Source: an uncultured Fidelibacterota bacterium
GTDB lineage: Bacteria; Fidelibacterota; Marinisomatia; Marinisomatales; TCS55
DNA: 36,956 bases
Assembly (NCBI GenBank): GCA_913009735.1
Contig: CAJVYU010000022.1
Location: 1 to 36,956, forward strand
Reading direction: 5' to 3'
The translations under genes were made by a program, and so were the position numbers. Below, piece by piece: positions 6,220-32,211 of this stretch (position 1 is the first letter of the stretch; each line of letters starts with the position of its first letter). The notes under the pieces were generated by a model. The model ran no database searches. It was not told the DNA's origin and worked only from the letters and a program-made list of their open reading frames with translations.

Positions 6220-6672
6220 ATGTCATCATTAGAAAAATGCACAGGATTCTTGACAGTACGAACCGGCCGGAGTATGAAAAAAGCACTGGATATCAACTTG
6301 ACAGAAAATGGTGTAACGTCAACACAGCAACATGTCCTTAGTGTCCTTGGAGATGAGGATGGAATATCACTATCCGCCATTGGGAGAAGGATTTTTCTCG
6401 ATAAACCGGCTATGACCGGTTTGGCGGATAGGATGGAAAAGGACGGCTTGGTCGAACGTAAGCGGAGTCCGGAAGACCGTCGGGTGATTCAATTATTATT
6501 AACAGAAAAAGGCAGAAAGGTTCTCAAAAAGTGTGAAAATATTGTTAATGAAACAGATGAACAATTGGTGAGTGTTTTGTCTGGAGATGAATTGAAATCT
6601 TTCAGAGAAATGTTGGTAAAAATATGGAAGAATGCAAAATCAAATACAAATAATGAGAACGGAAATGAGTAA
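6220..6672 (+). CDS. MarR family transcriptional regulator of the aromatic operon
   Basis: A 150-residue winged-helix protein. The segment [38 protein letters not shown] is the MarR recognition helix plus wing, with the conserved D-R-R. It is the first gene of the long plus-strand catabolic run, and its last codons overlap the start of the first benzoyl-CoA reductase gene (ATGAGTAA), so regulator and reductase are co-expressed. MarR-type regulators are known in anaerobic benzoate clusters (for example BadR of Rhodopseudomonas), so control by an aromatic acid or acyl-CoA is likely. Palindromes over its promoter suggest self-control. The effector is unknown. Confidence 0.88.
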
Positions 6673-7834
6673 AGAGCCAATTTTCGATGGATGGAAGGGG
6701 CAGCCTTTGGATGAGATTCTCTGGCTCGTTCAGGAAACAATCGAAGACATTGAAATGCCAACAGCAAAAATGTGGCGTAAGAACGGCGGAAAAATACTCG
6801 GACACTTCCAAGTATATTTCCCTGAAGAAATTGCCCATGCTGCCGGAATGCTCCCCTTAAAAATGTGCGGTGCGTCTGTGGAATCACGAATCGCAGACAG
6901 TCGGTTCGGTTCATATCTTTGCTCAATTATTAAAACTTCTCTCGAACAGGTACTCAGCGGACGGGTAGAATTGGATATGTTTGTTACACTTCCCATCTGT
7001 GACGCTGCACGAAACCTGGGGTCGATCTGGGGTCGCAATTTTAATTATCTCTGTCAAATCCTCTACTTACCACAGAATCCAAATTCAAAATATTCAGTCC
7101 AATATCTCCGCGATGAATACGAGCGGTTGAAAGAAACCATTGAAAAAGTAGCTGGTAAAACAATTACAGATGAACAGTTGAGAAACTCCATTGCTGTATT
7201 TAATAAAAATCGTGCTTTATTACGCAAACTCTATGAAATTAAACGAAACACCCCATGGTTGGTAACCATCCATGAAGCGTATATACTAACCCTAATCGGT
7301 AGTATGATCCCACGAGAAGAACACAACGAACTTCTGGAAGCAGTCTTGCCTATGCTGGAAAAAAGAAATGCCAAAAAACAGGATAAAATTCGCGTTGTTT
7401 ATGAAGGAGGCTTTTGTGAACAACCGCCATTAGATATGCTTCGCACGATGGGAAGGTCATGTTATGTGGTAGATGATGATCTTCTGATTGGTCTACGGTG
7501 GATATTGGAAGATGTAAATGCAGGTGACGACCCCTTATACGGTCTTGCAGACGGATACATCAACCAATCATCTTACAGTCCGGTTCAACATGATTTAAGA
7601 AAACCAAAAGAGGATATGTTGTTGGAACGGATCCGAAATTCCAGTGCGGAATCAGCAATTATAACTGCGGCGAAAATGTGCGAACCCGGATTGGAAGAAC
7701 AGGTGACTTATGCACATACTCTGGACAAGGAAAACATTCAATATTTCATGAGTGAATTTGAAGAAAACATGACCAGTTTTGATCATCTCGAAATTCAGCT
7801 TGAGACGTTTGTTGAAAATATAATTTTTGATTAA
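6665..7834 (+). CDS. bzdN: Benzoyl-CoA reductase subunit, BcrC/BzdN-like
   Basis: Catalytic-module subunit of ATP-dependent (class I) benzoyl-CoA reductase, in the 2-hydroxyacyl-CoA dehydratase D-component family, which holds a [4Fe-4S] cluster at the substrate site. The chosen ATG (6665, overlapping the MarR stop) gives 389 residues; upstream in-frame starts lie inside marR. Candidate cluster cysteines are C68 (KMCGAS), C86 (YLCSII) and C112 ([10 protein letters not shown]). Gene order (C-like, B-like, then two ATPases) is the order of bzdNOPQ and bcrCBAD. It reduces benzoyl-CoA to cyclohexa-1,5-diene-1-carbonyl-CoA with low-potential ferredoxin electrons, but no ferredoxin gene is in the window. 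Confidence 0.88.
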
Positions 7835-7844
7835 GGAAACAAAA

Positions 7845-9137
7845 ATGAGTGAGGTGATAAATATAGTCGGAAGAGGTGCTCGGGATGGTGCTAAATTATT
7901 TCGCGATTGGTTTAGTGAACTATCAAAAACTGCCGAACTTGGTAATCCGGCAGCTTATGTATTTGTCATGGGAAGTATGGCAGAAATACTTCGGGTATTT
8001 GACCTCCCAATGGTTTTTCCGGAGATCAATTCTCTGCAAACTGCAGTAAGGCATGTCTCCAGCGACTATTTGAACGAAGCCGAGGACTATGGCTATTCCC
8101 CTGATATTTGCGGATATGTGAAAGCGGATGTGGCAATGCAGCTTCGGGGTGGGGAACATCCAATGGGACGAATTCCTAAACCAAGTATTGCAGTGTTAAC
8201 CAATGCCTGTAATACCTATTTGAAATGGGGAGAAATTTGGGAGAGGATGTACGGTATCCCTATGTTCACAATCGATGTCCCTGCTACGCGTCAAGCCGGG
8301 AATCCAAGTCAGATTGGTTCAAATCAGTTTGAACGGGAAAAGAAATATATAATAGCCCAACTCGAAGAATTAATCGAACTGTGCGAAAAGATCACAGGTA
8401 TCACATTCGATATTGATAAACTCCGGGAAGTAATGGAGAATGTGAATAAAATGACTATTAGTTTCAAGCGGATGCTCGAGTTGAATAGAAGTAAACCATC
8501 GTTGTTTAATGCTCTCACTGACGGCACTATTTATCTTGGTGTTGCAAATACTTTCAGAGGAACCATTGAAGGAGTTAAATATTTTCAAAATCTGGTGGAA
8601 GAACTTGAATATATGTCAGAAAATGGTATTGGAACCTTGACGGATGAAAAATACCGCTTGTGTTTTATCGGGGTGCCGTGTTATCCGATTTTCAGACGGT
8701 TCAATGAAATGTTTACAGAATGGGGCGGCACATTTGTCACATCCACCTATTTGTGGTTTGCCACCGGTGGAACCAATCTCGGCTTTCAGTATGATTTGTC
8801 AAATCCACTGGATTCTTTGGCCGAAGGAATTTTGATCAGCGTCCGCGATGCCATGGATTCCATGTTTAATTCTGAAATACCATTGGTCAAAATGATCGAT
8901 GATTTTACTTTGGACGGAGTTATATATCATCCAATCAAAAGCTGCCGAACCGTGTCAACCGGTTTGGCAGATAACCGTCGCGCATTGATGGAAATGAGGG
9001 ATATCCAGACTTTGTTCATTGAATCTGATATGATGGATACCCGTGTAGTATCAGAAGCCCAGATGAAAAATAGAATTGATGCATTTTTTGAAGGTCTGGC
9101 TTCACGAAAGATAAGAGAAGCCGTAGGAGAAATATAA
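7845..9137 (+). CDS. bzdO: Benzoyl-CoA reductase subunit, BcrB/BzdO-like
   Basis: Second catalytic-module subunit, 430 residues from the ATG at 7845, which has AAGGAA seven bases upstream; the in-frame TTG at 7827 lies in the previous gene. Conserved cysteines are C89 ([12 protein letters not shown]), C122 ([11 protein letters not shown]) and C367 ([11 protein letters not shown]), the pattern that binds the [4Fe-4S] cluster in this family. The length fits the larger catalytic subunit of class I reductases. It pairs with the preceding gene to form the heterodimeric substrate-binding module. It starts 10 bp after that gene's stop. Confidence 0.88.
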
Positions 9138-9138
9138 T

Positions 9139-9951
9139 ATGGCTTATGCAGCAGGTGTAGATGTTGGGTCCACCCTGACCAAAGCAGTTATTATTAATGA
9201 AGACAGTCAGATTGTAAGCCGTTCTTTGATCGATACCGGCGCAAATGTTGTAAAGGCAGCCCAAAAGGCCTTTTTACTTGCATTGGAAAACGGAAATCTG
9301 CGCGAAGAAGAAGTTTCCTATGTGATTGGAACGGGGTATGGCCGGTATAAAGTTACTTTTGGGAATGCCCAGGTTACAGAGATCAGTTGTCACGGTCGCG
9401 GTGCAGTGAATATGTTCCCCGGCACTAAAACTGTTCTGGATATGGGCGGGCAGGACACAAAAGCTATCCGCATTGGAGATAATGGCGATATCATTGATTT
9501 TTGTATGAATGATAAATGTGCCGCCGGAACTGGCAGATTTCTGGGCGCGGCCGCCATAGCATTGGATATTCCAATTGATGACCTTGGACCCACAGCGCTC
9601 AAATCAGAAAAACCGGTCAAAATCAGTACAACATGTACGGTTTTTGCCGAAACGGAAGTGTTGTCCTGGCTTGGAAAAGGGAAGAAAATCCAAGATATCC
9701 TAATGGGAGTGCATTCTTCCATTGCATCCCGGTCTGTCTCTCTGCTGCGGCGTGTAGGAATTAAAGAGGAAGTAACCTTTTCCGGTGGTGTTGCAAAAAA
9801 TTTAGGAATGATAGAAGTACTAAATCGAGCCTTGGGAATGAAAATGAATGTAAGTGATGATTCACCCTATATGGGGGCATTAGGTGCGGCATTGTTTTCG
9901 TTAGACTATATTTTTGAAAGCCGGACCCCGATGAGAGAGAAAATAGTATGA
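9139..9951 (+). CDS. bzdP: Benzoyl-CoA reductase ATPase subunit, BcrA/D (BzdP)-like
   Basis: ASKHA-fold ATPase of the BcrAD/BadFG/HgdC family that uses ATP to push electrons from a bridging [4Fe-4S] cluster into the catalytic module. In 270 residues it has the phosphate-1 motif [10 protein letters not shown] (6-15), GTGYGR (64-69), [10 protein letters not shown] (101-110) and the two cluster cysteines C127 ([11 protein letters not shown]) and C166 ([11 protein letters not shown]), the same spacing as in Hgd[10 protein letters not shown] near the C-terminus is the adenosine motif. Both ATPases here are short (about 270 residues), which fits the Azoarcus bzdPQ arrangement better than the longer Thauera BcrA; this subtype call is from length and order only. 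Confidence 0.87.
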
Positions 9952-10754
9952 AAAATGTTATTGGTATTGATGTTGGATCAATATATACCAAAGCGGTGAT
10001 GCTTTCACCTGAAAATAAAATTATCTGCAAAGGAATGTTCTCGACAGGATTCAAACTATCGGAAGTATCCAGAAAAGTGTTTGATAATGTTATTAAATCT
10101 GCCGGTTTGACCGAAGACGATATCGGATATATCATTGCTACGGGTTACGGAAGACACAGAGTTGATTTTTGTGATTTAACCGTAACCGATCTGACAGCTA
10201 CAGCCCGGGGAGCCAATTTATTATTCCCGGGGACAATGACTGTTCTCGATATTGGAGGACAAACCATGAAAGCCAGTCGATTGGACGAAAATGTAAAAGT
10301 GAAATCATTTCGCTTAAACGATAAATGTGCAGCCGGGACAGGTGCTTTTTTGGAAAAAACCGCCAGGTATATGGGATATGAAACAGAAGAAATTGGACCG
10401 CTTGTCCTGATATCGAAAGAAAGCGTTCCTATTTCAGGTGTGTGTGCTGTGTTTGCCGAGTCCGAAGTGATCAATCAGCTATCATTGGGGTCTGCCCCTG
10501 CCGACATTATGTTAGGCGCCATGGAATCATTAGTTAAACGGGCAATCCAATTACTGAAGCGTGTAAAAATGGAGCCCAAAGTAATATTAACCGGTGGGAT
10601 AATGCGCTTTCCGTCTATGATCCAATTGTTAAGAGAACAACTCGAAGATGGAATACTCAATGTGCCTGAAGGTGATATGGTTCAGTTTACCGCTGCATTG
10701 GGCGCTGCAACGTTAGCCCTTCAAAGAATGACAAAAATTAGTGCTGCCGCATGA
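9948..10754 (+). CDS. bzdQ: Benzoyl-CoA reductase ATPase subunit, BcrD/A (BzdQ)-like
   Basis: Partner ATPase of the preceding gene, overlapping it by ATGA, 268 residues. It keeps [10 protein letters not shown] (6-15), ATGYGR, C127 ([11 protein letters not shown]) and C166 ([11 protein letters not shown]), and the [10 protein letters not shown] adenosine motif. The second phosphate motif reads [10 protein letters not shown], with Thr where the sister subunit has Asp (GGQD), so the two ATP sites are probably not equivalent. A heterodimer of two different ATPases is the class I benzoyl-CoA reductase pattern; 2-hydroxyacyl-CoA dehydratases instead use a homodimeric activator. Confidence 0.87.
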
Positions 10755-11014
10755 GTGACCTCTGTGGCATAACAGTCTCTCCGAGAGAAGATGAGTTAGT
10801 TCTAAATGGATGGGAAAAACAATTTTCTTGTAATGAACCGCGACTTTCTGAAGCAACCGAATTGTTTGAATCCATGGGAAGAGACGTAATCGTTGAAAAT
10901 GTTATAATTGAAAATCTTCCCAATGGAGACAGCTGTAAGGAATGTTTCATAAGCTGCAGTGGGGAAGTAAAAACAATCTGGACTCGAACTAAAAACACAA
11001 ACAAGGTCACTTAA
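10751..11014 (+). CDS. Small cysteine-containing protein of unknown function
   Basis: An 87-residue protein I do not recognise. Its ATG overlaps the stop of the second reductase ATPase by 4 bp (ATGA), so it is almost certainly translated with the reductase. It has five cysteines, C5, C27, C62, C65 and C69, three of them in SCKECFISCSGE (C-x2-C-x3-C) near the C-terminus, followed by VKTIWTRTK. There is no signal peptide or membrane segment. A metal- or cluster-binding assembly or electron-transfer accessory factor would fit its position and cysteines; that is inference. It is not a normal two-[4Fe-4S] ferredoxin, because the two C-x2-C-x2-C-x3-C motifs are missing. Confidence 0.7.
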   Translation: MSDLCGITVSPREDELVLNGWEKQFSCNEPRLSEATELFESMGRDVIVENVIIENLPNGDSCKECFISCSGEVKTIWTRTKNTNKVT

Positions 11015-11021: not shown

Positions 11022-12734
11022 ATGTCTAATAATTCAATTCTTGAAAGTACGATGACCCTTCCGGTTCATGCCGAGAATCTGGCAAGTATGTTATCAGAAA
11101 ATTCCAAAGCATTTTCGGGTAAAACAATTTGCCAGGAAATAAGGTATAATGTTTATGAACCCTTATTATGGGAAAAATGTTATCAAGACATCATTGCTAT
11201 TCAGCAATACCTTCTGTCTATTGGTTTCAGTGCAGGAGATCGATTGGCCATTTTATCCACAAATTGCAGTAAAATGCTGGAGATTGAACTTGCTGTAATG
11301 TCTATGGGTGGAATCGCGGTCCCCATCTTCGCAGGTTATCCCCGGGAAAAGACTAACCTATTGGTTGATTTCTGCGAAGCAAATATTGTTGTCTTGGAAG
11401 ATGACGCGCAAATTAACAAACTTTCCGATCCGGATAAATTTAGGAAAATAATCTATTTTAATGACCTGAACATCTCCGCTGGAAACCAAATTTCATTTAG
11501 TGAAATAATTGGTAATGAATCAACAGCAGATATCACCGGAATTGATATTCCCACAGATACTGTCTGTTTGATGATGTACACATCCGGCACCATGGGAAAA
11601 CCCAAATGTGTACAATTGACCCATGGTAATATTCTGTCACAACAGGCAGCGATGAGAGTATTATGGAAACTTTCAAGCACAGACAGATTTCTGTCTTATC
11701 TCCCCTGGCATCACAGTTTTGGCGGAATTTTTGAAAAATATGCTGCCATTTGCAACGGGGCAGTCCTGTCCCTGGATAATAGTTGCGGAAAGGATATTGA
11801 TAGATTATTAGCGAATTGGAGAAAAGTTAAACCAACCGTTTTCTTCAGTGTTCCGCGGATATACCAGTCATTGGCAACAATGATGCGCCATGACCCTGAA
11901 ATTGAAGATTTAATCTTCCATAATGAGTTGCGATTTATTTTTACAGCTGCGGCGCCGCTCCCTAAAAATATTTCTGATATCTTTGAGAAAAAAAATATCC
12001 CCGTTTACGAAGGATGGGGTTTGACTGAGACATCGCCATGCTGCACGGTAACAGACTCTAATGTACCGCGAAAAATTGGCGTGGTGGGAAAACCCATTGC
12101 CGGAGTTTCATTAAAATTGTCTCATGATGGAGAAATCCTTGTCAAAGGGCCCAATGTGATGACAGGATACTATCACAATCCGGATGAGACAGAAAAAGTT
12201 CTTTTGGAAGATGGATGGTTCAAAACGGGCGATGTCGGTAAGTTTACGGATACCGGGTTAAAACTGATTTCCCGCAAGGACAGGATATTCAAATTATCCA
12301 ACGCTAAAAAAGTCATCCCGGCCGAAATCGAAAATTTGATTGCAAAAGACTGTGCATATCTTTCTCATGCGTATGTTTCAGGTAGTGGTAAGGATTATCC
12401 TGTTGTATTATTATTCCCAAATACAGGCATGTTCGACCAAAAACCTGATGAGGCCCAGATAAAGGAAGACTGTTTATGTCCGAAAAACCTGATTGAATAT
12501 GTTAATTGCTTAACAAATTGTTTGGAAAATTGGAATCACTCAATCGATGCAAAATATTCCAGAATTAATAGAGCCAAACTCATTGATTACGAACTCTCTA
12601 TTGAGAATGAAGAGTTGACCCCATCTATGAAACTAGCACCAAATGTTGTGGGAAAGATATTCAAAGCAGAAATTGAGGAGTTGTATTCGCAAGAGACTGC
12701 AACCGAAGATGTATATATTATAAAATTAGGATAA
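11022..12734 (+). CDS. AMP-forming acyl-CoA ligase, long-chain ACS type, substrate unknown
   Basis: Adenylate-forming ligase of 570 residues. Core motifs are MYTSGTMGKPK (185-195, phosphate loop), YEGWGLTE (329-336), GWFKTGD (398-404), SRKDR (417-421) and a C-terminal catalytic lysine at about K537 in ELTPSMKLAP. That last segment resembles long-chain acyl-CoA synthetases (the LTP-T-LK pattern) more than the classical 520-residue benzoate-CoA ligases. It sits between the reductase genes and the third catalytic subunit and starts 7 bp after the small cysteine protein. It may activate benzoate, 4-hydroxybenzoate or another ring acid; it is the only ligase in the window. The substrate cannot be read from the sequence. 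Confidence 0.85.
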   Translation: MSNNSILESTMTLPVHAENLASMLSENSKAFSGKTICQEIRYNVYEPLLWEKCYQDIIAIQQYLLSIGFSAGDRLAILSTNCSKMLEIELAVMSMGGIAVPIFAGYPREKTNLLVDFCEANIVVLEDDAQINKLSDPDKFRKIIYFNDLNISAGNQISFSEIIGNESTADITGIDIPTDTVCLMMYTSGTMGKPKCVQLTHGNILSQQAAMRVLWKLSSTDRFLSYLPWHHSFGGIFEKYAAICNGAVLSLDNSCGKDIDRLLANWRKVKPTVFFSVPRIYQSLATMMRHDPEIEDLIFHNELRFIFTAAAPLPKNISDIFEKKNIPVYEGWGLTETSPCCTVTDSNVPRKIGVVGKPIAGVSLKLSHDGEILVKGPNVMTGYYHNPDETEKVLLEDGWFKTGDVGKFTDTGLKLISRKDRIFKLSNAKKVIPAEIENLIAKDCAYLSHAYVSGSGKDYPVVLLFPNTGMFDQKPDEAQIKEDCLCPKNLIEYVNCLTNCLENWNHSIDAKYSRINRAKLIDYELSIENEELTPSMKLAPNVVGKIFKAEIEELYSQETATEDVYIIKLG

Positions 12735-12737: not shown

Positions 12738-13931
12738 ATGCCAAGACTTCAATCACAGACCGCATTAAAAAATATATTAAAAACATATTTCACAGAGATG
12801 AGGTCACCCATAGCTTGGTGCACAAGTGCCGGTCCGGCAGAGATTTTAAGGGCATTGGGATTTGATGTGTATTTCCCGGAAAATCACGGTGCGTTATTGG
12901 GAGCATCCCGAATTGCAGAAAAATATATACCCCGGGCACACCAGGAAGGTTTTGATGGTGAAATCTGTTCTTATCTGACGGCCGATATCGGCGCATGGCT
13001 CATGAAGGAAACCCCTTTAACAAAGATTTATGGACTGGAATCGATTCCAAAACCGGACTTGATTGTTTTCAACACAAACCAATGTCGCGAAGTTGCCGAA
13101 TGGTTCTCTTATTTCGGACGGGAATTTGATTGTCCGGTGGTAGGTATTTTCCCACCCCGATATCTTGAGACTGTCCATAAAGCGGATATAGATAATGTGG
13201 TTGCTCAATTCAAGAACCTCATATCCATTGGTGAGAATGTAATTGGGAAAAAGTTAGATCCGGAGCGACTGGCTGAAACACTTCGTTTAAGTTCAGAAGG
13301 ATCACAATTGTGGAAAAAAGTATTGGGTACTGCAAGTAATAAACCTGCTCCGCTTTCATTTTTTGATGGTTGCATCTTAATGGCTCCAATTGTTGTTCTT
13401 CGCGGTACACAAATTTGTGTTGATTTTTATAAGGATGCCTTAAGTGAATTAACTCAACTTGTCAATAATAATAAAGGCGCTGTTGCCGACGAACAAGTAC
13501 GCATTTATTGGGAAGGGATGCCGGTGTGGGGCAAGTTAAGAAGTTTGTCGGAACTGTTTGCTCAAAACAATGCTTCGGTGGTGGCTTCCACTTATTGCAA
13601 CAGTTGGGTGTTTGATGATTTTGACATATCAAACCCGTTGGAATCTATGGCTCATGCCTATACACAAATATTTATCAACCGTGGTGAAAATACCAAACTT
13701 GAAATGATGATGGATCTCATTGAAACTTTTTCAGTTGATGGTGTGATTTTCCATAATTCAAAAACATGCTTTAATAATGCAAACGGCCGATTTGGCTTAC
13801 CAGGTCGACTGGAAAAGGAAACCGGAATTCCAACTGTATCTTTCGACGGTGATCTCGTAGATCTTCGATTTTTCTCGGAAGGACAAACTGAAACAAAACT
13901 CGAAACATTTTTTGAACAATTAAAAGGTTAA
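12738..13931 (+). CDS. Additional BcrB-like / 2-hydroxyacyl-CoA dehydratase family subunit
   Basis: A third member of the benzoyl-CoA reductase/2-hydroxyacyl-CoA dehydratase D-component family, 397 residues, starting 3 bp after the ligase. It matches the BcrB-like subunit (7845-9137) motif by motif: C77 (EICSYLTADIGAW, compare [12 protein letters not shown]), C116 (NTNQCREVAEW, compare [10 protein letters not shown]) and C344 (FHNSKTCFNN, compare YHPIKSC). An extra C28 lies in AWCTSAGPAEIL. All three cluster positions are intact, so it is probably functional. No second catalytic partner is adjacent, although the family normally works as a heterodimer. With the PanE-like gene and third activator downstream it may form a separate enzyme, or swap into the reductase. 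Confidence 0.85.
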   Translation: MPRLQSQTALKNILKTYFTEMRSPIAWCTSAGPAEILRALGFDVYFPENHGALLGASRIAEKYIPRAHQEGFDGEICSYLTADIGAWLMKETPLTKIYGLESIPKPDLIVFNTNQCREVAEWFSYFGREFDCPVVGIFPPRYLETVHKADIDNVVAQFKNLISIGENVIGKKLDPERLAETLRLSSEGSQLWKKVLGTASNKPAPLSFFDGCILMAPIVVLRGTQICVDFYKDALSELTQLVNNNKGAVADEQVRIYWEGMPVWGKLRSLSELFAQNNASVVASTYCNSWVFDDFDISNPLESMAHAYTQIFINRGENTKLEMMMDLIETFSVDGVIFHNSKTCFNNANGRFGLPGRLEKETGIPTVSFDGDLVDLRFFSEGQTETKLETFFEQLKG

Positions 13932-13952
13932 GATGGTTCTTCAAAGCCATCT
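13931..13952. other. Small intergenic hairpin
   Basis: AGATGG at 13931-13936 and CCATCT at 13947-13952 pair perfectly around a 10-base loop, starting at the stop codon of the dehydratase-like gene. There is no T-run, so it is not a convincing terminator; it may affect mRNA processing between this gene and the next. Confidence 0.3.
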
Positions 13953-13980
13953 ATAATTCCAACTGAATGGAGATAATTAT

Positions 13981-14928
13981 ATGACCGAAAATAATCCTCA
14001 ACTTAAGATAGGAATAATTGGTTTAGGTCCTGTCGGTGCAACATTAGCTGTCCATTTTTTAGAGGCAGGTGCTTTTGTCGTTGCATGTGATATTGATCCT
14101 CAAAAAATAGATATGATTAAAAAAGATGGGATTGTACTGAAGCATACGATTGAAAAGCACGTACAAATCGAAGAAGTATGCTACACGTTACCGGAATTAG
14201 AGATGTATGATCTTGATCTTGTAATCATTGCGACAAAAGCAACTGCTTTGGGGAAGGTGGTCAAGCAACTGTCTGAAATCGCTACAGAAAAAATGTATGT
14301 ACTTTGTGCGCAAAATGGCATTGACAACGAACAGAAAGCATCGAGCGAATTTGGCGAAGATAAAACATTGAGAATGGTGATTAATTATGCCGGGAACATG
14401 AGTGATAGGAATACGGTTCATGTCAGCTTCTTTAATCCGCCAAACTATGTTGCGTCCATGATGCCCCAGGGAAATCATATGGCTGAAAAAATAGCCGAAC
14501 TATTAAACTCTGCCGGTTTGGAGACTGAAATACCTGAAGATATTCAGGACTTTGTTTGGGAAAAAGCAATTTTGAATGCAGCCTTGAGCGCAGTCTGCGC
14601 CATTACCCGGCGAACGATGAAGGATGTTATGAGTTTCCCAAAGACACTTGAACTAGTGGAGGCTATTATTGATGAGTCCGCACGGGTTGCTGATGTAGAA
14701 GGCATTGAACTCGGGAAAAAATTCCGAAGGTTCTGCATTCAATATTTGAAAAATGCAGGTCACCACCGCCCATCCATGTTGGTGGATCTTGAAGACGGCC
14801 GTCGAACCGAGATTGATTTTCTTAATGGAAAAATCGTGGAATACGGCAGAAAACATTATCTGCCGACACCCTTGAATCAATCTGTTACGGCATTAATACA
14901 TATGCTTGAATACTCACCTGAAGATTAA
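13981..14928 (+). CDS. Ketopantoate reductase-fold (PanE/ApbA) 2-oxoacid reductase-like protein
   Basis: NADP-dependent reductase fold, 315 residues. It has the N-terminal dinucleotide motif GIIGLGPVGATLA (12-24), CAQNGIDNE, the catalytic-type Lys in VWEKAILNAALSA and the Glu in RRTEIDFLNGKIVEYG, which are the hallmarks of 2-dehydropantoate 2-reductase. A good GGAG site precedes the ATG. Its place between a dehydratase-type subunit and an activator argues against vitamin B5 synthesis. PanE relatives are known that act as D-2-hydroxyacid dehydrogenases, so making or oxidising a 2-hydroxy acid, or a ring hydroxy-acyl-CoA, is plausible. The family is sure; the substrate is inferred. Confidence 0.82.
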   Translation: MTENNPQLKIGIIGLGPVGATLAVHFLEAGAFVVACDIDPQKIDMIKKDGIVLKHTIEKHVQIEEVCYTLPELEMYDLDLVIIATKATALGKVVKQLSEIATEKMYVLCAQNGIDNEQKASSEFGEDKTLRMVINYAGNMSDRNTVHVSFFNPPNYVASMMPQGNHMAEKIAELLNSAGLETEIPEDIQDFVWEKAILNAALSAVCAITRRTMKDVMSFPKTLELVEAIIDESARVADVEGIELGKKFRRFCIQYLKNAGHHRPSMLVDLEDGRRTEIDFLNGKIVEYGRKHYLPTPLNQSVTALIHMLEYSPED

Positions 14929-14939
14929 GGATGCGGGGA

Positions 14940-15698
14940 ATGTCTGACTATTTTGTTGGTATTGATTTAGGCTCATCCTATACCAAGTTCGCTGTTTCTG
15001 ATGAGGACAAGAATCTTGTGTATAAAGCAGTCGTTCCGACGTTGAGCAGAAATAAAGATGTGTTCAAGAATGAACTTGAAAAGATCAGGGATAAATATTC
15101 TATTTCGAAAATATGTACAACTGGATATGGGCGGAACAGTTTCGATAGTGATATTAAAAAAACCGAATTGGTTTGTGCGTCGGTCGGAGTATCTGCATTG
15201 TATCCCGAACATAAATGTATTATTGATATCGGAGGTGAAGATATCAAGATCATTGAAAGCGGTCCAAAAGGCGAAGTTCTCAATTTTTATATGAATGATA
15301 AATGTTCTGCCGGAACCGGAACATTTATTACAGAAATCGCAGAGAAAGCAGAACTCGAAATAAGTGAAATGAGCACGCTTGCAAAAACATCCAACACAAC
15401 TAAAGTCATTAACAGTTTCTGTACTGTCTTCGCTAAATCAGAAATACTGGGATGGAAGTTCAATGATATGCCTATCGAGGAAATTGCCAGAAGCATTTAC
15501 CTTTCCATTGTAACACGCATCAGAAAATTGCCTGTTAAAACAAATCTTGCGATTTATCTATGTGGGGGCGTAATTGCATTTCATCCATATTTAAAGGCGC
15601 TGATATCCGAGGAATTCAATGTTGATATTACGGTTCCTGATGATTCCCAGTTTATCGTGGCATTGGGTGCATCTGTTTTGGCAAAAATGAAAAAATAA
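14940..15698 (+). CDS. Third BcrAD/HgdC-family ATPase (activator)
   Basis: ASKHA-fold ATP-dependent electron activator, 252 residues from the ATG at 14940 (AAGGA 8 bases upstream; an ATG at 14931 would add three residues). It keeps GIDLGSSYTK (7-16), TTGYGR (60-65), DIGGEDIKII (96-105), C122 (NDKCSAGTGTF) and C161 (SFCTVFAKSEI), with the same 39-residue spacing between cluster cysteines as the two reductase ATPases, plus a GGVIAFHPY adenosine motif. It lies 11 bp after the PanE-like gene. As a lone ATPase it could act as a homodimer, like HgdC, on the subunit at 12738-13931. It appears diverged from the two reductase ATPases. Confidence 0.85.
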   Translation: MSDYFVGIDLGSSYTKFAVSDEDKNLVYKAVVPTLSRNKDVFKNELEKIRDKYSISKICTTGYGRNSFDSDIKKTELVCASVGVSALYPEHKCIIDIGGEDIKIIESGPKGEVLNFYMNDKCSAGTGTFITEIAEKAELEISEMSTLAKTSNTTKVINSFCTVFAKSEILGWKFNDMPIEEIARSIYLSIVTRIRKLPVKTNLAIYLCGGVIAFHPYLKALISEEFNVDITVPDDSQFIVALGASVLAKMKK

Positions 15699-15708: not shown

Positions 15709-16950
15709 TTGAGTAACAAATTTGCATGTGAATATGACGATATATACCTGATAAACGGTGCCCGCACTCCCTTTGGGAAGTTTATGGGAGCCCTCGGAGC
15801 TATTTCGCCAACGGATCTTGGGATCATTGCAAGTCGTGCCGCAATTAAAAGATCTGGAATTACACCTGAAGATATTGACCATGTGGTTTATGCCAATATC
15901 ATCCAGTCCAGTTTTGATGCCATTTACATTCCGAGACACGTGGGTCTATATTGTGGAATACCCTCGTCCGTTCCGGCATTGCTGGTTCAGCGGATTTGTG
16001 GTTCAGGATTCGAATCCATCATTTCTGCTGCAGAACAAATCACTTTGGGCAAGGCTGGGTTTATTTTAGCGGGCGGCGCAGAGAACATGACCCTTACCCC
16101 TACAGCATCGTTTGGGAACAGAATGGGTTACAGGTTAGGTGGAATTAAATTTGGTGATACGCTGATGGAAGGTCTTTACGATCCCGCCGGGAATTGTTCC
16201 ATGGGACAAACTGCCGAAAACCTTGCCAAAAAATACAAAATTTCAAGAGAAGATGTTGATGAGTTCGCTCTTCGGTCCCATACCTTGGCATTAAAAAATA
16301 TGAAGGATGGTACTCTTGGAGAAGAAATAGTTGAGGTTGGTTCCGGCGTCCTTGAATCAGAGAATTTAACTCCACGCAAAATCAGGACTATTCCAAGCAA
16401 ACGTACATTAAATTATGACGAAAACATTCGTGAAACCGGTATGGACCAACTGAAAGGACTGTCCCCGACTTTTGCAAAAGATGGCGTTCAAACAGCCGGA
16501 AATTCCAGTGGCATTGTTGACGGTGCTGCATCGGTTATTGTGGGTTCCGGTAAAAAAATAGAATTAAAAGGTTTACAACCGCTCGCTAAAATAGTGGCAT
16601 CCGCATCGGCGGGAGTGGATCCAACAATTATGGGAATCGGACCGGCTCCGGCAATACGGAATGTATTGGAAAAAACAGGATTATCTTTGGATGATATTGA
16701 TCTGTTTGAAATCAATGAAGCCTTTGGTGCGCAAATTGTAGCTGTAGAATTGGAGCTGGGGTTGGACAGAAAAAAACTCAATGTGAACGGTGGCGCTATC
16801 GCTATAGGACATCCATTGGCCGCAACTGGAACACGATTGACCCATACATTAGCTTTGGAGCTTAAAAGAAGAAATAAAAAATATGGTGTTGCTTCCGCCT
16901 GCATTGGCGGTGGACAGGGAACGGCAATTCTAATCGAAAATGTAGATTAA
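15709..16950 (+). CDS. Thiolase (acetyl-CoA C-acyltransferase) 1
   Basis: A 413-residue thiolase that cleaves 3-oxoacyl-CoA with CoA. The nucleophile is C97 (LVQRICGSGFES), the His base is H368 (AIAIGHPLAATG) and the second active Cys is C398 (SACIGGGQGTA); EINEAFGAQ is also present. It starts at TTG (15709), supported by a strong AAAGGAG site five bases upstream and by the in-frame N-terminus; no ATG lies near. Following the reductase accessory genes, it probably serves the beta-oxidation of 3-hydroxypimelyl-CoA or its products. A second thiolase is at 27298. Confidence 0.9.
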   Translation: MSNKFACEYDDIYLINGARTPFGKFMGALGAISPTDLGIIASRAAIKRSGITPEDIDHVVYANIIQSSFDAIYIPRHVGLYCGIPSSVPALLVQRICGSGFESIISAAEQITLGKAGFILAGGAENMTLTPTASFGNRMGYRLGGIKFGDTLMEGLYDPAGNCSMGQTAENLAKKYKISREDVDEFALRSHTLALKNMKDGTLGEEIVEVGSGVLESENLTPRKIRTIPSKRTLNYDENIRETGMDQLKGLSPTFAKDGVQTAGNSSGIVDGAASVIVGSGKKIELKGLQPLAKIVASASAGVDPTIMGIGPAPAIRNVLEKTGLSLDDIDLFEINEAFGAQIVAVELELGLDRKKLNVNGGAIAIGHPLAATGTRLTHTLALELKRRNKKYGVASACIGGGQGTAILIENVD

Positions 16951-16981: not shown

Positions 16982-18040
16982 ATGAAGACAATACAATCGT
17001 GGCAGATGACAGAGAAAGACCAACCTTTTGAGTTGGTTGAAAAATCAATACCTGAACTTGCTGATGGTGAGGCATTGGTAAAAATTGCTGGTTGTGGTGT
17101 GTGTCATACCGATTTGAGTTTTTGGCATTATGGAGTACCAACGCGTCATGAACTTCCGTTGGTGTTAGGTCATGAAATTAGTGGTATTGTAGAAGATGGA
17201 CCTGCACATTTAAAAGGGAAACCGGTTATCATTCCGGCTGTAATGCCTTGCGGTGAATGTGATCTGTGCAAAGCAGGAAGAAGTAATATTTGTCCGAAAC
17301 AGCAAATGCCCGGAAATGATTTTCATGGTGGTTTTTCCAGTCATATTGTAACACCTGCCCGGTTCTTGGTGGCGGTTTCAGATTCAGCTCTGGCAAACCA
17401 TACATTAGCGGAATTAGCCGTTATCGCCGATGCTGTTTCCACACCGTATCAAGTAGTATTAAAGAGTGAAATTCAAGATGGTGATTTTGCTGTTATTATT
17501 GGCGTCGGTGGTGTGGGGATTTATGCCGCTCAAATTGCCAACATAATGGGTGGAAAAGTATTGGCGTTGGATATTTCACAGGATAAACTTGATCAACTTG
17601 CACAAATTGGTATTGATCAGACTTTAAATATTTCCAAAATGGGTATTCGGGATATTAAAAATGCAGTAAAGGAAAGATGCCGGGAAATGGGCGCTCCATT
17701 AAACCGTTGGAAAATCTTTGAAATGTCAGGCACAAAACCGGGGCAGGAATTGGCATTTGCACTTATGGGAATTGCCACCACCCTATCAATCGTTGGATTT
17801 ACTATGGATAAATTGGAAGTCCGGTTAAGTAATCTGATGGCATTTGATGCAAATATTATCGGCACATGGGGTTGTAAACCGGAATTATATGCAGACGTCC
17901 TGGAACTGGTTTCTGAAGGCAAACTGAAAATAAAACCATTTACAGAAACATTTCCCTTGTCACAAATCAATGAAATTTTTCAACAAACATTAGAACATAA
18001 ACTGAAGAAACGATCCGTTATGATACCGGATTTTGAATAG
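16982..18040 (+). CDS. had: 6-hydroxycyclohex-1-ene-1-carbonyl-CoA dehydrogenase (Had)
   Basis: Zinc-type medium-chain dehydrogenase, 352 residues, that oxidises the ring hydroxyl made by the dienoyl-CoA hydratase. Catalytic zinc ligands are seen in GCGVCHTD (C41) and LGHE (H64, E65). The structural-zinc cysteines are C90, C93, C96 and C104 (PCGECDLCKAGRSNIC). The NAD motif is VIIGVGGVGIYAAQI. The GFSSH segment and the HELPLVLGHEISGIVEDG context match Had proteins, and the ring-opening hydrolase follows directly, as in bzdXY and had-oah pairs. A generic alcohol dehydrogenase is the fallback. Confidence 0.88.
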   Translation: MKTIQSWQMTEKDQPFELVEKSIPELADGEALVKIAGCGVCHTDLSFWHYGVPTRHELPLVLGHEISGIVEDGPAHLKGKPVIIPAVMPCGECDLCKAGRSNICPKQQMPGNDFHGGFSSHIVTPARFLVAVSDSALANHTLAELAVIADAVSTPYQVVLKSEIQDGDFAVIIGVGGVGIYAAQIANIMGGKVLALDISQDKLDQLAQIGIDQTLNISKMGIRDIKNAVKERCREMGAPLNRWKIFEMSGTKPGQELAFALMGIATTLSIVGFTMDKLEVRLSNLMAFDANIIGTWGCKPELYADVLELVSEGKLKIKPFTETFPLSQINEIFQQTLEHKLKKRSVMIPDFE

Positions 18041-18136: not shown

Positions 18137-18176
18137 TTCCCTCTTATCTCTTTATGCTTTTGTGCCTTGGTGGCAA
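18137..18176 (-). repeat. Inverted relative of the CACAGAG repeat, before oah
   Basis: Read on the minus strand this begins TTGCCACCAAGGCACAAAAG and continues into A/G-rich sequence, a looser member of the same repeat class in the opposite orientation. With the copy at 18048 it brackets the otherwise AT-rich 154-bp gap between had and oah. Confidence 0.45.
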
Positions 18177-18194
18177 GAAAAAAAGGAGAATGAC

Positions 18195-19280
18195 ATGAGC
18201 AATAATTTAGTCAATCACAATTTAGTGGATATTGATTACAAGGAAATTATCTATGAATTACGTCCATGCTTGGATTACAACGGCGACCCTGTTGAAGGAT
18301 TGAACAATGCCTGGATTTTACTGAACAATCCCAAACAGTATAACTCTTATACAACAGCAGCCGTGAAGGAAATTATACTTGCTTTTCGCGAAGCTTCCAA
18401 TGACCGCAGTGTTGTATCCGTTGTTTTATCAGCTGTGGGCGATAAAGCCTTCTGCACCGGTGGAAATACGAAGGAATATGCTGAGTATTATGCCGGTCGG
18501 CCCATGGAATACAAACAATATATGCGCCTTTTCAATGATATGATCACATCCATCCTGCACTGCGACAAACCGGTGATCTGCCGAGTGAATGGAATGAGGA
18601 TTGCCGGGGGACAGGAAATTGGAATGGCATGTGACTTTTCCATAGCCAGTGACTTGGCTATTTTTGGCCAGGCAGGCCCCAAACACGGCAGCGCTCCTGA
18701 CGGTGGGAGTACCGATTTCCTGCATCTATATGTGGGAATTGAACGAGCAATGCAGAGCGGTGTTTTGTGTGAAATGTGGACTGCCTACGAAGCGAAAAAT
18801 ATTGGATTGATCACCAATGTGATTCCTGTTTTGAAAGTAGATGGCAAATTTATTCGGAATCCCCTTTTAATCACTGATAAATGGATCAATGAATTCGGAG
18901 ACCTTGTGTATGGTCGGAAAAAATCCGGGGATGAATATAAAGCTGGCAAAGAGTTGCTTATGAACGGTGAGATTGATCTGTTACCGCTTGATACCGCTGT
19001 TAATGCGTTGGCAACAAAAATAATGTACTTAATGCCAGAGTGCACCAGCAAGACTCTGAACAGTCTCCGTAAAAAGAAACTGGAGCATTGGGACAAAAAC
19101 AGTCAAACCAATCGCGATTGGTTGGCGCAGAATATGGTCACAGAAGCGCTGGCAGGATTCAGAGCGTTTAATGAAGGTCCGAAAGGTAACCGTGAAGTTG
19201 ATTTTATCAAACTTCGTCAAATGCTGGCTGAAGGACATCCTTGGGATGATGAACTGGTAGAAGCTATTATGCCAAAATAA
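18195..19280 (+). CDS. oah: 6-oxocyclohex-1-ene-1-carbonyl-CoA hydrolase (Oah)
   Basis: Crotonase-superfamily ring-opening hydrolase that adds two waters and cleaves the ring to give 3-hydroxypimelyl-CoA. The ATG at 18195 follows AAAAAAGGAG, giving 361 residues; the GTG further upstream lies in repeat sequence. The segment FCTGGNTKEYAEYYAGRP (87-104) and EYKQYMRLFNDM after it are characteristic of Oah, and the oxyanion-hole region is RIAGGQEIGMACDFS (135-149). FGQAGPKHGSAPDGGSTDF is also family-typical. It is flanked by CACAGAG-type repeats on both sides, so it could have its own transcript, separate from had. Confidence 0.92.
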   Translation: MSNNLVNHNLVDIDYKEIIYELRPCLDYNGDPVEGLNNAWILLNNPKQYNSYTTAAVKEIILAFREASNDRSVVSVVLSAVGDKAFCTGGNTKEYAEYYAGRPMEYKQYMRLFNDMITSILHCDKPVICRVNGMRIAGGQEIGMACDFSIASDLAIFGQAGPKHGSAPDGGSTDFLHLYVGIERAMQSGVLCEMWTAYEAKNIGLITNVIPVLKVDGKFIRNPLLITDKWINEFGDLVYGRKKSGDEYKAGKELLMNGEIDLLPLDTAVNALATKIMYLMPECTSKTLNSLRKKKLEHWDKNSQTNRDWLAQNMVTEALAGFRAFNEGPKGNREVDFIKLRQMLAEGHPWDDELVEAIMPK

Positions 19281-28538: not shown

Positions 28539-29012
28539 ATGGGTTTAAAACAAATAGAATTAACGGTGAATGGTTTTTCCTCTCCATTTCTGGTGCAATC
28601 TGATGAAGTACTATTATTTACATTGAGAGAACGACTATACTTAACCGGTACCAAAGAAGGATGTAATCAAGGTACCTGCGGAAGCTGCACTGTACTTCTG
28701 GACGGGAAACCGGTTTTATCGTGTATGACTCCAACGCTTAGATGTGTGGGGAAGAAAATCATCACCATTGAAAATATCAGTTCCGGAGATACCTTGCATA
28801 CCGTTCAAAAATATCTGGTAGAAAAAGGCGGGCTGCAATGTGGATTTTGTACACCGGGTGTAGTGATGACAATGGTACCGTTTCTTGAAGAAAACCCGAA
28901 TGCCTCCCGCGAAGAAATCAAAGAAGGTCTTTCCGGTAATCTCTGTCGATGTACCGGGTATAAAAAAATTATTGATGCCGTAGAAAATGCTGCTGAGGAG
29001 ATGCGGTCGTGA
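28539..29012 (+). CDS. hcrC: 4-hydroxybenzoyl-CoA reductase, [2Fe-2S] subunit (HcrC)
   Basis: Small iron-sulfur subunit of a xanthine-oxidase-family molybdenum enzyme, 157 residues. The plant-type [2Fe-2S] cysteines are C42, C47, C50 and C62 (GCNQGTCGSCTVLLDG then C62), and the second cluster uses C101, C104, C136 and C138 (QCGFCTPGV and NLCRCTGYKKI). It overlaps the large subunit by GTGA. The small-large-medium gene order and the [4Fe-4S] insert of the medium subunit identify the complex as the dehydroxylating type rather than an ordinary hydroxylase. Confidence 0.9.
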   Translation: MGLKQIELTVNGFSSPFLVQSDEVLLFTLRERLYLTGTKEGCNQGTCGSCTVLLDGKPVLSCMTPTLRCVGKKIITIENISSGDTLHTVQKYLVEKGGLQCGFCTPGVVMTMVPFLEENPNASREEIKEGLSGNLCRCTGYKKIIDAVENAAEEMRS

Positions 29013-31285
29013 GCGGACCCATCGGCAAACCAACTCCATTTATCGATGCGGTACAGAAAGTCACCGGTCAGGCAATGTATGCTGGAGATTATCGAATGCC
29101 GAATATGCTGTATGTGCGTTTCCTCAGAAGTACAGAATCCCATGCAATAATTTCTAAACTTGATACTTCAGAAGCAGAATCATATCCCGGTGTATGTGCT
29201 GTTGTAATTGGAAAAGAAATTCCGATTTCATTTGGGGTTTTACCAATCAGTCCTGACGAAAATGCAATTGCCATAGATAAAGTTCGATATAAAGGTGAAA
29301 TCGTCGCCGCAGTCGCTGCTGAAACGATTGAAGCTGCGAGAGAAGGCGCAAAAATAATCCAGGTTGAATATGAACCTATTCGTTTATTTCTAGAACCTGA
29401 AGATTCTTTGGAAACATGTGCATTTCATGAACAAATCCACAGTCACACGAAAAATGGAAAAAATATTCACAAGACTGCAGAACTGCGTTTCAACGAACCG
29501 GAAAAAGAAATTAAAACAGCCGCCCATGTTCGGAGGGAAAAATTCAAGTTTGCAGGAGTAACTCATGCCTTTACGGAACCACACTCAACAATAGCAGTCT
29601 GGAATGGAGATGATACACTTACGGTAATCAGTGCGACTCAAGTACCCCATTATCTGCACAGAAATTTGGCAAAAGTGCTGGGACTGCCCATGCATAGCAT
29701 CCAAGTGAAAAAACCGGCGCTTGGAGGTGGTTTTGGCGGAAAAAGCGACCCCTTCCCTCATGAAATAATCACTGCCTATATGGCAATGAAAACCAAACGA
29801 CCGGTAAAATGCACTTTTTCCCGGGAAGAAGTGTTTATCACGAACCATGGAAGGCATCCTACAGAAATTGATATGTCTGTCAGTTGTGATCAAAATGGAA
29901 AAATAACCGCTCTGGATACAGATATTATTATTGATGGTGGTGCCTACGGTAGTTTTGGTGTGGTAACGTCTTACTATAACGGTGTCTTGCTGCAGGGTCC
30001 CTACAGAATTAATAAGTTTGGTTTCCGAACTCGCCGTGTTTACACGAATAAGCCACAGTGCGGCGCCATGCGCGGACATGGAGCGGTAAATCCCCGGTAT
30101 GCTGTGGAAGTAATGCTGGATATGCTGGCCCACGATATGAACATGGATCCCTGCGATTTGCGTATAAATAATTTTCTTCCGGAAAATACATTAACGGTTG
30201 GGCAACTGCGAATCACAAGTAACGGTGTTCGGGAATGTTTAGATACGGTCAGGATGAAATGTGATTGGGATAACCGTTACGGTAAACTTCCTTCTGGACA
30301 CGGTCTTGGAGTCGCCTGCGGTTTTTTCATAAGCGGCAGCGCTCTTCCAATCATATGGAACCGATATCCTCAAACGGTTGTACACGCAAAATTGGATTTT
30401 GACGGAAGAATTGTCATGTTCAGCGGGGCCAGTGATATTGGACAGGGAAGTGATACGGTGCTGGTCCAGATTGCTGCAGAGGAATTAGGTATCACTATGG
30501 GTCATGTTCAGGTAGAAGTTGCCGACACAAAAATAACCCCTGTAGATCTAGGTAGCTATTCAAGCCGTGTTACATTTATGGTTGGGAATGCTGCCAAAAC
30601 AGCAGCGACGAAAGTCAGAGAAGAAATGGCTAAAGCCATTGCAAAAGAAAAAGGTGTTATTGCGGAAAATCTGATTTTTAATAATTGCCGTATCTATACC
30701 AAAGATGAAACTGTCGATTTAAGTTGGGAAGAAGGTGTGGAAATTGCCCTGGCCGGCAGGGGTGCGTTTGTGGAAAGTGGATATTACATATCACCGAAAC
30801 TTGGTGGAACTTTCAAAGGGGCCGGCGCCGGGTTGAGCCCTGCATATAGTTTTGGTGCTTTTATTTCTGAAGTGAAGGTGAACCCCAATACAGGCGAAGT
30901 AAACGTGATCAAAATCTGGGGAGCACACGATTGTGGAAAAGCACTCAATCCCCTTTCGGTGGAAGGACAGATTGAAGGAAGTATTCATATGGGGTTGGGT
31001 CAAGCAATGTCCGAAGAACTGCGATACAAAAATGGTCAGCAGATGAATGCCAATTTCTTTGATTATCGTATTCCGTCAAGCCTGGATACTCCCGATATGG
31101 ATATTACTATTATTGAATCGAACGATGCTGAAGGTCCGTATGGAGCAAAAGAAGCCGGTGAAGGTCCTATTCATCCGGTATTGCCGTCCATAGGAAATGC
31201 CATTTATGATGCGGTGGGAATCCGCATGATGGAACTTCCTATCACCCCCGACAAGGTCTTATCAAAATTAAGGGGGGGGGAATAG
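29009..31285 (+). CDS. hcrA: 4-hydroxybenzoyl-CoA reductase, molybdopterin subunit (HcrA)
   Basis: Catalytic molybdenum-cofactor subunit, 758 residues, with a GTG start coupled to hcrC and a GAGGAG site before it. Family motifs are GGGFGGKSDPFPHE (about 239), GAMRGHGAVNPRYAVEVMLDM (about 352), ASDIGQGSDTVLVQIAAEELG, and the C-terminal PYGAKEAGEGPIHPVLPS (about 709), which contains the conserved active-site Glu. It removes the para-hydroxyl of 4-hydroxybenzoyl-CoA reductively to give benzoyl-CoA, feeding the reductase at 6665-10754. The gene ends in a run of nine G immediately before its stop; one inserted G would join it in frame to hcrB. Confidence 0.9.
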   Translation: MSGPIGKPTPFIDAVQKVTGQAMYAGDYRMPNMLYVRFLRSTESHAIISKLDTSEAESYPGVCAVVIGKEIPISFGVLPISPDENAIAIDKVRYKGEIVAAVAAETIEAAREGAKIIQVEYEPIRLFLEPEDSLETCAFHEQIHSHTKNGKNIHKTAELRFNEPEKEIKTAAHVRREKFKFAGVTHAFTEPHSTIAVWNGDDTLTVISATQVPHYLHRNLAKVLGLPMHSIQVKKPALGGGFGGKSDPFPHEIITAYMAMKTKRPVKCTFSREEVFITNHGRHPTEIDMSVSCDQNGKITALDTDIIIDGGAYGSFGVVTSYYNGVLLQGPYRINKFGFRTRRVYTNKPQCGAMRGHGAVNPRYAVEVMLDMLAHDMNMDPCDLRINNFLPENTLTVGQLRITSNGVRECLDTVRMKCDWDNRYGKLPSGHGLGVACGFFISGSALPIIWNRYPQTVVHAKLDFDGRIVMFSGASDIGQGSDTVLVQIAAEELGITMGHVQVEVADTKITPVDLGSYSSRVTFMVGNAAKTAATKVREEMAKAIAKEKGVIAENLIFNNCRIYTKDETVDLSWEEGVEIALAGRGAFVESGYYISPKLGGTFKGAGAGLSPAYSFGAFISEVKVNPNTGEVNVIKIWGAHDCGKALNPLSVEGQIEGSIHMGLGQAMSEELRYKNGQQMNANFFDYRIPSSLDTPDMDITIIESNDAEGPYGAKEAGEGPIHPVLPSIGNAIYDAVGIRMMELPITPDKVLSKLRGGE
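31272..31280 (+). repeat. Homopolymer of nine G at the hcrA-hcrB junction
   Basis: Nine consecutive G in AT-rich DNA, encoding Arg-Gly-Gly-Glu just before the hcrA stop TAG. It also serves as the ribosome-binding region for the hcrB GTG start, 5 bp downstream. Confidence 0.8.
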
Positions 31286-32211
31286 TGGATTATTATCACT
31301 CTCCTTCGTCAATAAAAGATGCATTGTCTATGGCTGGAAAATTTTCAGGGAATTATACCATTTTTGCCGGCGGGACCGATATTCAAATTTATCGTAAACA
31401 GCAACTTGATACGAATGAACATATTATCGATTTAAGTGGAATTGATGAATTAAACTCCATCGCTACCAAGGAAGGAATCCTTCATCTGGGTGCCATGACA
31501 ACCCTGGACGAAATCATTTCGTCTGACGAGATTCAACTCCATTATCCACTCATCGCTGAAGCAGCAAAATCTGTAGCAACTCCCGTACTGCGTAAAACGG
31601 CAACCATTGGTGGAAATCTCCTGGTAAAAAACCGATGTGTTTTCTATAATCAATCTCAAGCATGGCGGAACGGTATGGGTTCATGCCTGCGGGATGTGGG
31701 AACGATTTGTCAAGTCACTGGCGGTAAGAAGGACTGCTATTCCCGGAATGTATCCGATACTGCGGCAGCGCTGATAGCTCTTGGTGCTGAAATAACCTTG
31801 ATGACCCCTGATGGAATAACACAAAAACCTCTCAAAGATATATATCTGCCATGTGGTATCAAATTCCACAATTTAGAAGAACATAGTATTTTGACTCAAA
31901 TATCCGTCCCCATAAAACCGAAAAAATGGTGGTATAAAAAATTACGGTTACGGAAAACACTGGATTTTACATCATTGACTGTTGCGGCAACAGTAGATAT
32001 AAACAGCATAGCTCGTGTGTGTTTGAATGGCGTGTCTATGTCGCCTATACTTGTTGAACAAACTATGGATACACTTACTCAGGAAAACCTGACTAGACAA
32101 GCCCGGAAGAACTGTAAAACCGTTGATAATGACTTGATGCCATTGAAATACCGGCGGGAAATGATCAATGTGTTTTTAGAAGAATGGTGGGATTCTATTG
32201 AAATAATATAA
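31285..32211 (+). CDS. hcrB: 4-hydroxybenzoyl-CoA reductase, FAD / [4Fe-4S] subunit (HcrB)
   Basis: FAD-binding medium subunit, 308 residues, starting at GTG 31285, which overlaps the hcrA stop (TAGTG). FAD motifs are FAGGTDIQI (27-35) and TIGGNLLVKN. Four cysteines, C118, C134, C142 and C151, lie in an insert with spacings of 16, 8 and 9 residues. From memory these are the spacings of the extra [4Fe-4S] ligands in the Thauera 4-hydroxybenzoyl-CoA reductase beta subunit (C122, C138, C146, C155). This cluster is absent from ordinary xanthine-oxidase-type enzymes and is the best evidence for the substrate call. The gene is the last of the catabolic run. Confidence 0.9.
   Translation: MDYYHSPSSIKDALSMAGKFSGNYTIFAGGTDIQIYRKQQLDTNEHIIDLSGIDELNSIATKEGILHLGAMTTLDEIISSDEIQLHYPLIAEAAKSVATPVLRKTATIGGNLLVKNRCVFYNQSQAWRNGMGSCLRDVGTICQVTGGKKDCYSRNVSDTAAALIALGAEITLMTPDGITQKPLKDIYLPCGIKFHNLEEHSILTQISVPIKPKKWWYKKLRLRKTLDFTSLTVAATVDINSIARVCLNGVSMSPILVEQTMDTLTQENLTRQARKNCKTVDNDLMPLKYRREMINVFLEEWWDSIEII

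Follow-up and report, generated by a model that had tools for sequence, protein, structure and literature searches.

A candidate accessory radical 2-hydroxyacyl-CoA dehydratase module beside the benzoyl-CoA reductase genes of an uncultured Fidelibacterota bacterium

Why should a genome that carries a complete class I benzoyl-CoA reductase (BCR) place a third catalytic-type subunit, together with an activator, in the same operon? The question arises in contig CAJVYU010000022.1 (assembly GCA_913009735.1) of an uncultured Fidelibacterota bacterium, of which a stretch of 36,956 nucleotides, hereafter called the window, was analysed. An earlier reading of the letters, hereafter the original prediction, had reported a third catalytic-family subunit, a PanE-fold gene and a BcrAD/HgdC ATPase in one operon behind a four-gene reductase; the open reading frames, the strand and the Pfam matches confirm the trio, and the complete reductase was found at 6632-10754. 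The three genes, T1 (12738..13931, 397 aa), T2 (13981..14928, 315 aa) and T3 (14931..15698, 255 aa), are intact and all on the plus strand, and they are preceded by an AMP-forming acyl-CoA ligase gene (LIG, 11022..12734, +), with gaps of 3 nt between LIG and T1, 49 nt between T1 and T2, 2 nt between T2 and T3, and 10 nt between T3 and a thiolase gene. Our answer, which we offer tentatively, is that LIG, T1, T2 and T3 form an accessory radical 2-hydroxyacyl-CoA dehydratase (HAD) system feeding the benzoyl-CoA pathway, for which we infer the reaction order, the substrate and the quaternary structure. The module itself is real, widespread and a variant within the BCR/HAD radical enzyme family, and no description of it was found in the literature searched, most subscription journals lying outside that search. 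The survey of relatives used a genome collection with one genome per species, in which at least 574 T1 relatives were confirmed, and the locus counts given below come from the best 80.

Kinship of the catalytic subunit T1

T1 matches the Pfam domain HGD-D (PF06050) with 206 bits. The three cysteines that had been claimed for it earlier are present at the cluster ligand positions, namely C77 (12966..12968, +), C116 (13083..13085, +) and C344 (13767..13769, +), and these, together with the two extra cysteines C28 (12819..12821, +) and C287 (13596..13598, +), are invariant across 62 aligned T1 sequences. The description of T1 as BcrB-like did not hold, since T1 scored 213.5 bits against the curated HadB model (NF052455, cut-off 750) in comparison to 148.1 bits against BcrB (TIGR02260, cut-off 486.6), and fell below both cut-offs; the scores against BzdO (TIGR03191) and DCCP were also below their cut-offs, with 92.6 bits in comparison to 448.6 and 61 bits in comparison to 350, respectively. 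HadB (3o3m_A) was the top match in a sequence search of the PDB, with 169 bits. For the AlphaFold model of T1 (mean pLDDT 88.5, pTM 0.90), HadB was again the best fold match (3o3m_A first, TM about 0.89 to 0.90), in comparison to 0.84 to 0.87 by query length for MbdO and BzdO and 0.73 to 0.80 for DCCP.

The phylogeny that had been suggested as a check placed T1 among the catalytic subunits as a clade of its own (support 100/99), apart from the clade of BcrB and MbdO (100/99) and far from the C-, N- and HadC-type subunits (100/100), but left the placement of HadB and BzdO unsure, owing to long branches. T1 shares with BcrB, BzdO and MbdO the same fold, the three cluster cysteines and a place in the same operon, but differs from BcrB and MbdO in lying outside their clade and under the TIGR02260 and TIGR03191 cut-offs; the candidates DCCP and BcrB were both rejected on profile scores, tree and fold. 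Residues S30 and E48 agree with a substrate site of HadB/BzdO type. By its domain, its cysteines and its nearest relative, T1 resembles the catalytic component of HADs, with a predicted HadB-like fold and a putative dehydratase activity.

The module as a functional unit

T2, a putative 2-oxo-acid reductase of the PanE/ApbA fold, matches ApbA and ApbA_C in Pfam and scores above the cut-off of TIGR00745 (196 bits, cut-off 141). Residues Asn112, Lys195, Ser265 and Glu277, which we take to be the catalytic set of ketopantoate reductase (KPR), are kept in at least 97% of 78 proteins, and 75 of the 78 have an acidic residue, D or E, at position 37, where the second strand ends (D37 in the window), which suggests a preference for NAD, probably as NADH. 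The closest solved relatives of T2 include, as full-length matches, the KPR-family enzymes 8wl1 and 3wfi, presumably D-mandelate dehydrogenases, and KPR-family enzymes yield D (R) hydroxy acids. The KPR-family D-2-hydroxyacid (D-mandelate) dehydrogenases of Enterococcus thus resemble T2 in length, in the four catalytic residues and in the acidic residue at the strand end, but T2 is fused to a BcrAD-type activator in relatives and stands in another genomic setting. T3 is a BcrAD/HgdC-type ATP-dependent activator (BcrAD_BadFG, 121 bits; TIGR00241, 174 bits, above the cut-off of 125), and its two cluster cysteines, also claimed earlier, were recovered as C125 and C164 in 68 of 68 homologues. The PanE-fold protein and the activator (ACT) form a single continuous protein in 49 of the 80 loci and are separate in 18, with PanE alone in view in nine and neither in four; no stop codon interrupts the junction in the four loci inspected, and we know of no PanE::activator fusion elsewhere.

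LIG matches AMP-binding (205 bits) and AMP-binding_C_3, and is carried by 51 of the 80 loci, while 25 have an NDP-forming ligase instead and none has both; the open reading frames of about 700 aa in the place of LIG, considered as a new gene, proved to be these NDP-forming acyl-CoA ligases. The C-terminal domain of LIG (12279..12695, +) contains five cysteines, four of them invariant and one conserved in more than 90% of 55 sequences. The same domain occurs as a separate gene in 20 of the 25 loci with an NDP-forming ligase and in none of the LIG loci; this separate gene adjoins T1 and has mostly lost the catalytic-lysine region. These open reading frames of about 134 to 181 aa beside T1 had been considered ligase debris and are instead a maintained domain. 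Its model (pLDDT 68, moderate) weakly matches adenylation C-terminal domains, the Pfam match being likewise weak, and the separated domain may have a non-catalytic role together with T1.

The 80 loci are mostly from Bacteroidota, and also from Marinimicrobia, Zixibacteria, Ignavibacteria, KSB1 and Acidobacteria, with the usual gene order of BCR genes, ligase, T1, PanE-ACT, thiolase, had, oah, dch and fadB. In nine T1 genomes with a clear T3 orthologue (43 to 62% identical), T3 and PanE are present even if scattered, as in G061, with T1 on contig C37, ACT on C82 and PanE on C43 and C116; in G039, the activase adjoining T1 is only 37% like the T3 probe. T3 and PanE are both absent from four BCR genomes without T1 (G045, G155, G214 and G218), a sample that is small and phylogenetically non-independent and in which the BCR contig ends early in G045 and G155. 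In G041, which seemed to lack T1, an assembly gap covers the positions expected for T1 and PanE. The thiolase is at most a possible marker of the module, since the T1-negative BCR contigs end early or carry another pathway. Based on the co-occurrence and the PanE::activator fusion, it is well supported that LIG, T1, T2 and T3 are one functional unit, and the neighbourhood search that the original prediction had proposed found the trio recurring in relatives, mostly in the fused form. The further claim of a self-contained route stands as regards the unit with the ligase, but the route is probably not self-contained, since T1 was seen only in genomes also containing BCR, apart from a few fragmentary ones. 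For the same reason, the product of T1 would most likely enter the benzoyl-CoA pathway.

Among characterised systems, the clostridial HadBC/HadI and FldBC/FldI, which are the (R)-2-hydroxyisocaproyl-CoA and the phenyllactyl-CoA dehydratase with their activators, resemble the module in the HGD-D catalytic subunit with three cluster cysteines and HadB-like fold, in the BcrAD-type two-cysteine activator, and in the 2-hydroxy-acid-forming and CoA-activating enzymes nearby. The module differs from both in that it lacks a beta subunit, uses a ligase rather than a CoA-transferase, has its activator fused to a PanE-fold reductase, contains two extra invariant cysteines and is tied to BCR.

Proposed reaction and competing explanations

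In the proposed reaction, T2, probably with NADH, would reduce a 2-oxo acid and so form the (R)-2-hydroxy acid, LIG (replaced in some relatives by an ADP-forming ligase) would form the CoA ester, T3 would hydrolyse ATP and push one electron onto T1, T1 would remove water by ketyl-radical chemistry to yield a 2-enoyl-CoA, and the fadB-like and thiolase enzymes of the operon would then release acetyl-CoA. From phenylpyruvate or 4-hydroxyphenylpyruvate, cinnamoyl- or coumaroyl-CoA and then benzoyl- or 4-hydroxybenzoyl-CoA would thus be formed for 4-hydroxybenzoyl-CoA reductase (HCR) and BCR. HADs take (R)-2-hydroxyacyl-CoA (PMC11971306); in these enzymes the ATP-energised electron of the activator goes to the beta cluster, and the alpha cluster reduces the substrate to a ketyl radical from which the 2-hydroxyl is lost, with the beta cluster storing the electron for the next cycle (PMC11574389). 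The same chemistry has been hypothetically proposed for a benzene degrader that has FldABC-like proteins (PMC13416013).

As to the substrate, three genomes (G061, G078 and G079) have a HisC/Pat-family aminotransferase beside a PanE gene, and one of HisC/Pat type immediately precedes marR/BCR in six Marinimicrobia genomes and also, as a partial open reading frame, at the Bacteroidota locus L103; the upstream type has as its top PDB match 4r2n, a putative phenylalanine aminotransferase, with 174 bits and ahead of HisC. These aminotransferases and the restriction of T1 to BCR genomes favour arylpyruvates, so that the substrate is probably phenylpyruvate or 4-hydroxyphenylpyruvate and the module probably channels the breakdown of aromatic amino acids into ring reduction. 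Two side observations concern such aminotransferases. A TrpB-like PLP enzyme adjoins the upstream type in Marinimicrobia (L041 14917-17535, L160, L166). On contig C21 of the genome under study (G000; L159 6617-10415), a HisC-type aminotransferase that shares 50% identity with the one at L083 precedes two genes, one fumarylacetoacetase-like and one flavin-reductase-like, and a weak match to AMP-binding; the group may be a further locus for aromatic acids.

Several points weigh against the dehydratase reading. The chemistry of the module is deduced rather than derived from activity, NCBIfam calls both types of aminotransferase HisC, the window itself contains no aminotransferase, and one of the six Marinimicrobia genomes with the upstream type (G155) is an assembly without T1. 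In addition, LIG may be a benzoate ligase, the thiolase and fadB may serve only the oxidation of 3-hydroxypimelyl-CoA, HADs do not share C28 and C287 in the alignment, and HADs normally store an electron in a second, beta-subunit cluster (PMC11574389).

The same chemistry could act on an aliphatic 2-oxo acid, such as 2-oxoglutarate or a branched-chain acid, and yield an ordinary rather than an aryl 2-enoyl-CoA. Characterised HADs do act on leucine- and glutamate-derived acids, and the nearest of them, HadB, takes 2-hydroxyisocaproyl-CoA, but the strict tie to BCR genomes and to had, oah and dch, and the Pat-like aminotransferases near the module or BCR, make this explanation rather unlikely.

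The next question is the partner of T1. The genome under study (91% complete) encodes exactly three HGD-D proteins, the two BCR subunits BCR_C and BCR_B and T1, and the same holds for most T1 genomes examined, the exceptions being duplicated, split or fragmentary sets. A hidden HadC was therefore rejected: in the PF06050 census of these genomes, no HadC/HgdB-type (beta) subunit was found besides the BCR's own, which also answers the check for a second catalytic subunit that the original prediction had called for. It had also supposed that T1 might replace one partner of the reductase, and T1 could indeed be an alternative active-site subunit paired with BCR_C, giving a second reductase or dehydratase for another substrate with T3 as an extra activator: T1 is of catalytic type, BCR_C is the sole N/C-type partner in the genome, and T1 occurs with BCR. 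But T1 accompanies three types of BCR, namely Mbd-like in the window, Bcr at L050 (TIGR02260 651, cut-off 487) and Bzd at L083 (TIGR03190 487, cut-off 454; TIGR03191 677, cut-off 449), and remains about 58 to 80% identical across them, while those BCR subunits are only about 25 to 35% identical to the window's. T1 also has its own activator and is sometimes unlinked from BCR, yet with PanE, ligase or activator alongside. On these comparisons a T1:BCR_C hybrid is unlikely.

The homodimer that had been suggested instead is possible because a HadC-type partner is lacking, its quaternary structure being a prediction, and T1 probably works as a homodimer, with a dimer of T3 or of the T2::T3 fusion as its activator. 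The premise that such enzymes normally use two different catalytic subunits overlooked DCCP, a member of the same family that is a homodimer with one activator (PMC11971306). In a T1 homodimer, each cluster would have to take on both roles, unless storage of the electron fell to the extra cysteines or to the ligase domain.

The extra cysteines allow a further explanation, in which T1 is a reductase with an enlarged or double-cubane-like five-cysteine cofactor and acts on some other intermediate in the aromatic pathway, to reduce or repair it, with the PanE-fold enzyme handling the product of T1. In three alignment modes, the invariant C287 shares its column with a DCCP cysteine and with BzdN Cys263, which is among the six double-cubane ligands (PMC11971306); the residue is Pro in HadB, Leu in MbdO and Thr in BcrB and BzdO. 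The module resembles DCCP and its reductase in having one catalytic and one activator gene, and C28 lies one alignment column off BzdN Cys36. However, only four of the six double-cubane cysteines are in register in T1 with one shifted by that column, and the alignment gave no counterpart of BzdN Cys293, the sixth. The low DCCP score, the fold nearer HadB, and S30 and E48 also argue against it, and we consider it quite unlikely. In BzdO, the space of the lost sub-cluster is taken by the substrate and Trp46 (PMC11971306), and because of this a full double-cubane cluster in T1 would clash with a HAD-type substrate site. A distinct HGD-D subunit about 31% identical to T1 was also observed in G026, G055 and G133 (L057, L058 and L166) with ligase and PanE; it keeps C28 and has Thr in place of C287, and no T3-type activator was found in these three genomes, though PanE is kept.

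That T2 serves only pantothenate synthesis in this genome and the trio is no functional unit is very improbable, because, even though the genome under study has PanB with T2 as its sole ApbA_C protein, so that a second role of T2 is possible there, PanB is absent from six of eight T1 genomes keeping T2, where T2 is therefore not for pantothenate, position 37 is of NAD rather than NADPH type, T2 is absent from BCR genomes without T1, and T2 and T3 are mostly fused.

Surrounding genes and significance

The BCR genes, the small gene behind them and the pathway genes from THL1 to hcr are all on the plus strand. The BCR genes (6632..10754) encode BCR_C (6632-7834), BCR_B (7827-9137) and two ATPase subunits (9139-9951 and 9948-10754); the enzyme is of class I, yet lies under every curated equivalog cut-off in NCBIfam, and is called Mbd-like because BCR_B clusters with MbdO of Thauera chlorobenzoica in the tree. 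Between BCR and LIG, and absent from the original prediction, lies an 87-aa cysteine-bearing protein (10751..11014), without a Pfam match, that is kept in the close relatives of the genome, which are Marinimicrobia; in clusters of Mbd-like and Bzd type, small cysteine-bearing proteins of 70 to 87 aa come after the BCR genes (e.g., L083 7421-7630). In three Flavobacteriales loci (L090, L112 and L127), the BCR genes have between them a gene for a 374- to 380-aa NAD-binding protein that on visual inspection resembles saccharopine dehydrogenase. Downstream of T3 are the BktB-like beta-ketothiolase THL1 (15709..16950), the 6-hydroxycyclohex-1-ene-1-carbonyl-CoA dehydrogenase gene had (16982..18040; TIGR03201 451 bits, cut-off 339), the 6-oxocyclohex-1-ene-1-carbonyl-CoA hydrolase gene oah (18162..19280; TIGR03200 570 bits, cut-off 464), a dch-like dienoyl-CoA hydratase gene (23744-24511), a fadB-like hydratase/dehydrogenase gene (24496-26496) and hcrCAB-like HCR genes (28539..32211). 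Between oah and dch (19320-23718), the pathway genes are broken by two S41 peptidase genes flanking a DUF4143/AAA_14 gene (20918-22096), which is 98% identical in G001 (L048), where its neighbours are 79 to 91% identical, as if recently transferred. Two consecutive PemK/MazF-like toxin genes (32407-32874 and 33165-33506) lie 3' of the hcr genes.

A bolder proposition, which we regard as doubtful, is that the radical enzymes of the BCR/HAD family include a third kind, with T1 as its founding member. Such an enzyme would be a single-subunit homodimer derived from HadB, and its cofactor site with five cysteines would stand between the [4Fe-4S] cluster of HADs and the double-cubane cluster. An activator joined to a 2-oxo-acid reductase would drive it, a cysteine domain of ligase origin would assist it, and in Bacteroidota and related phyla it would connect the catabolism of aromatic amino acids with anaerobic ring reduction. 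The extra cysteines are relevant to the loss or alteration of double-cubane clusters within the family. If the accessory dehydratase is true, a single-subunit member would be added to the BCR/HAD family, of which DCCP is, to our knowledge, the only one known as a homodimer. For the at least 574 T1 relatives, mostly uncultured Bacteroidota and other FCB bacteria with a class I BCR alongside, it would also provide a testable reason for ring reduction in these lineages, namely the complete anaerobic oxidation of phenylalanine and tyrosine via aryllactyl-CoA.

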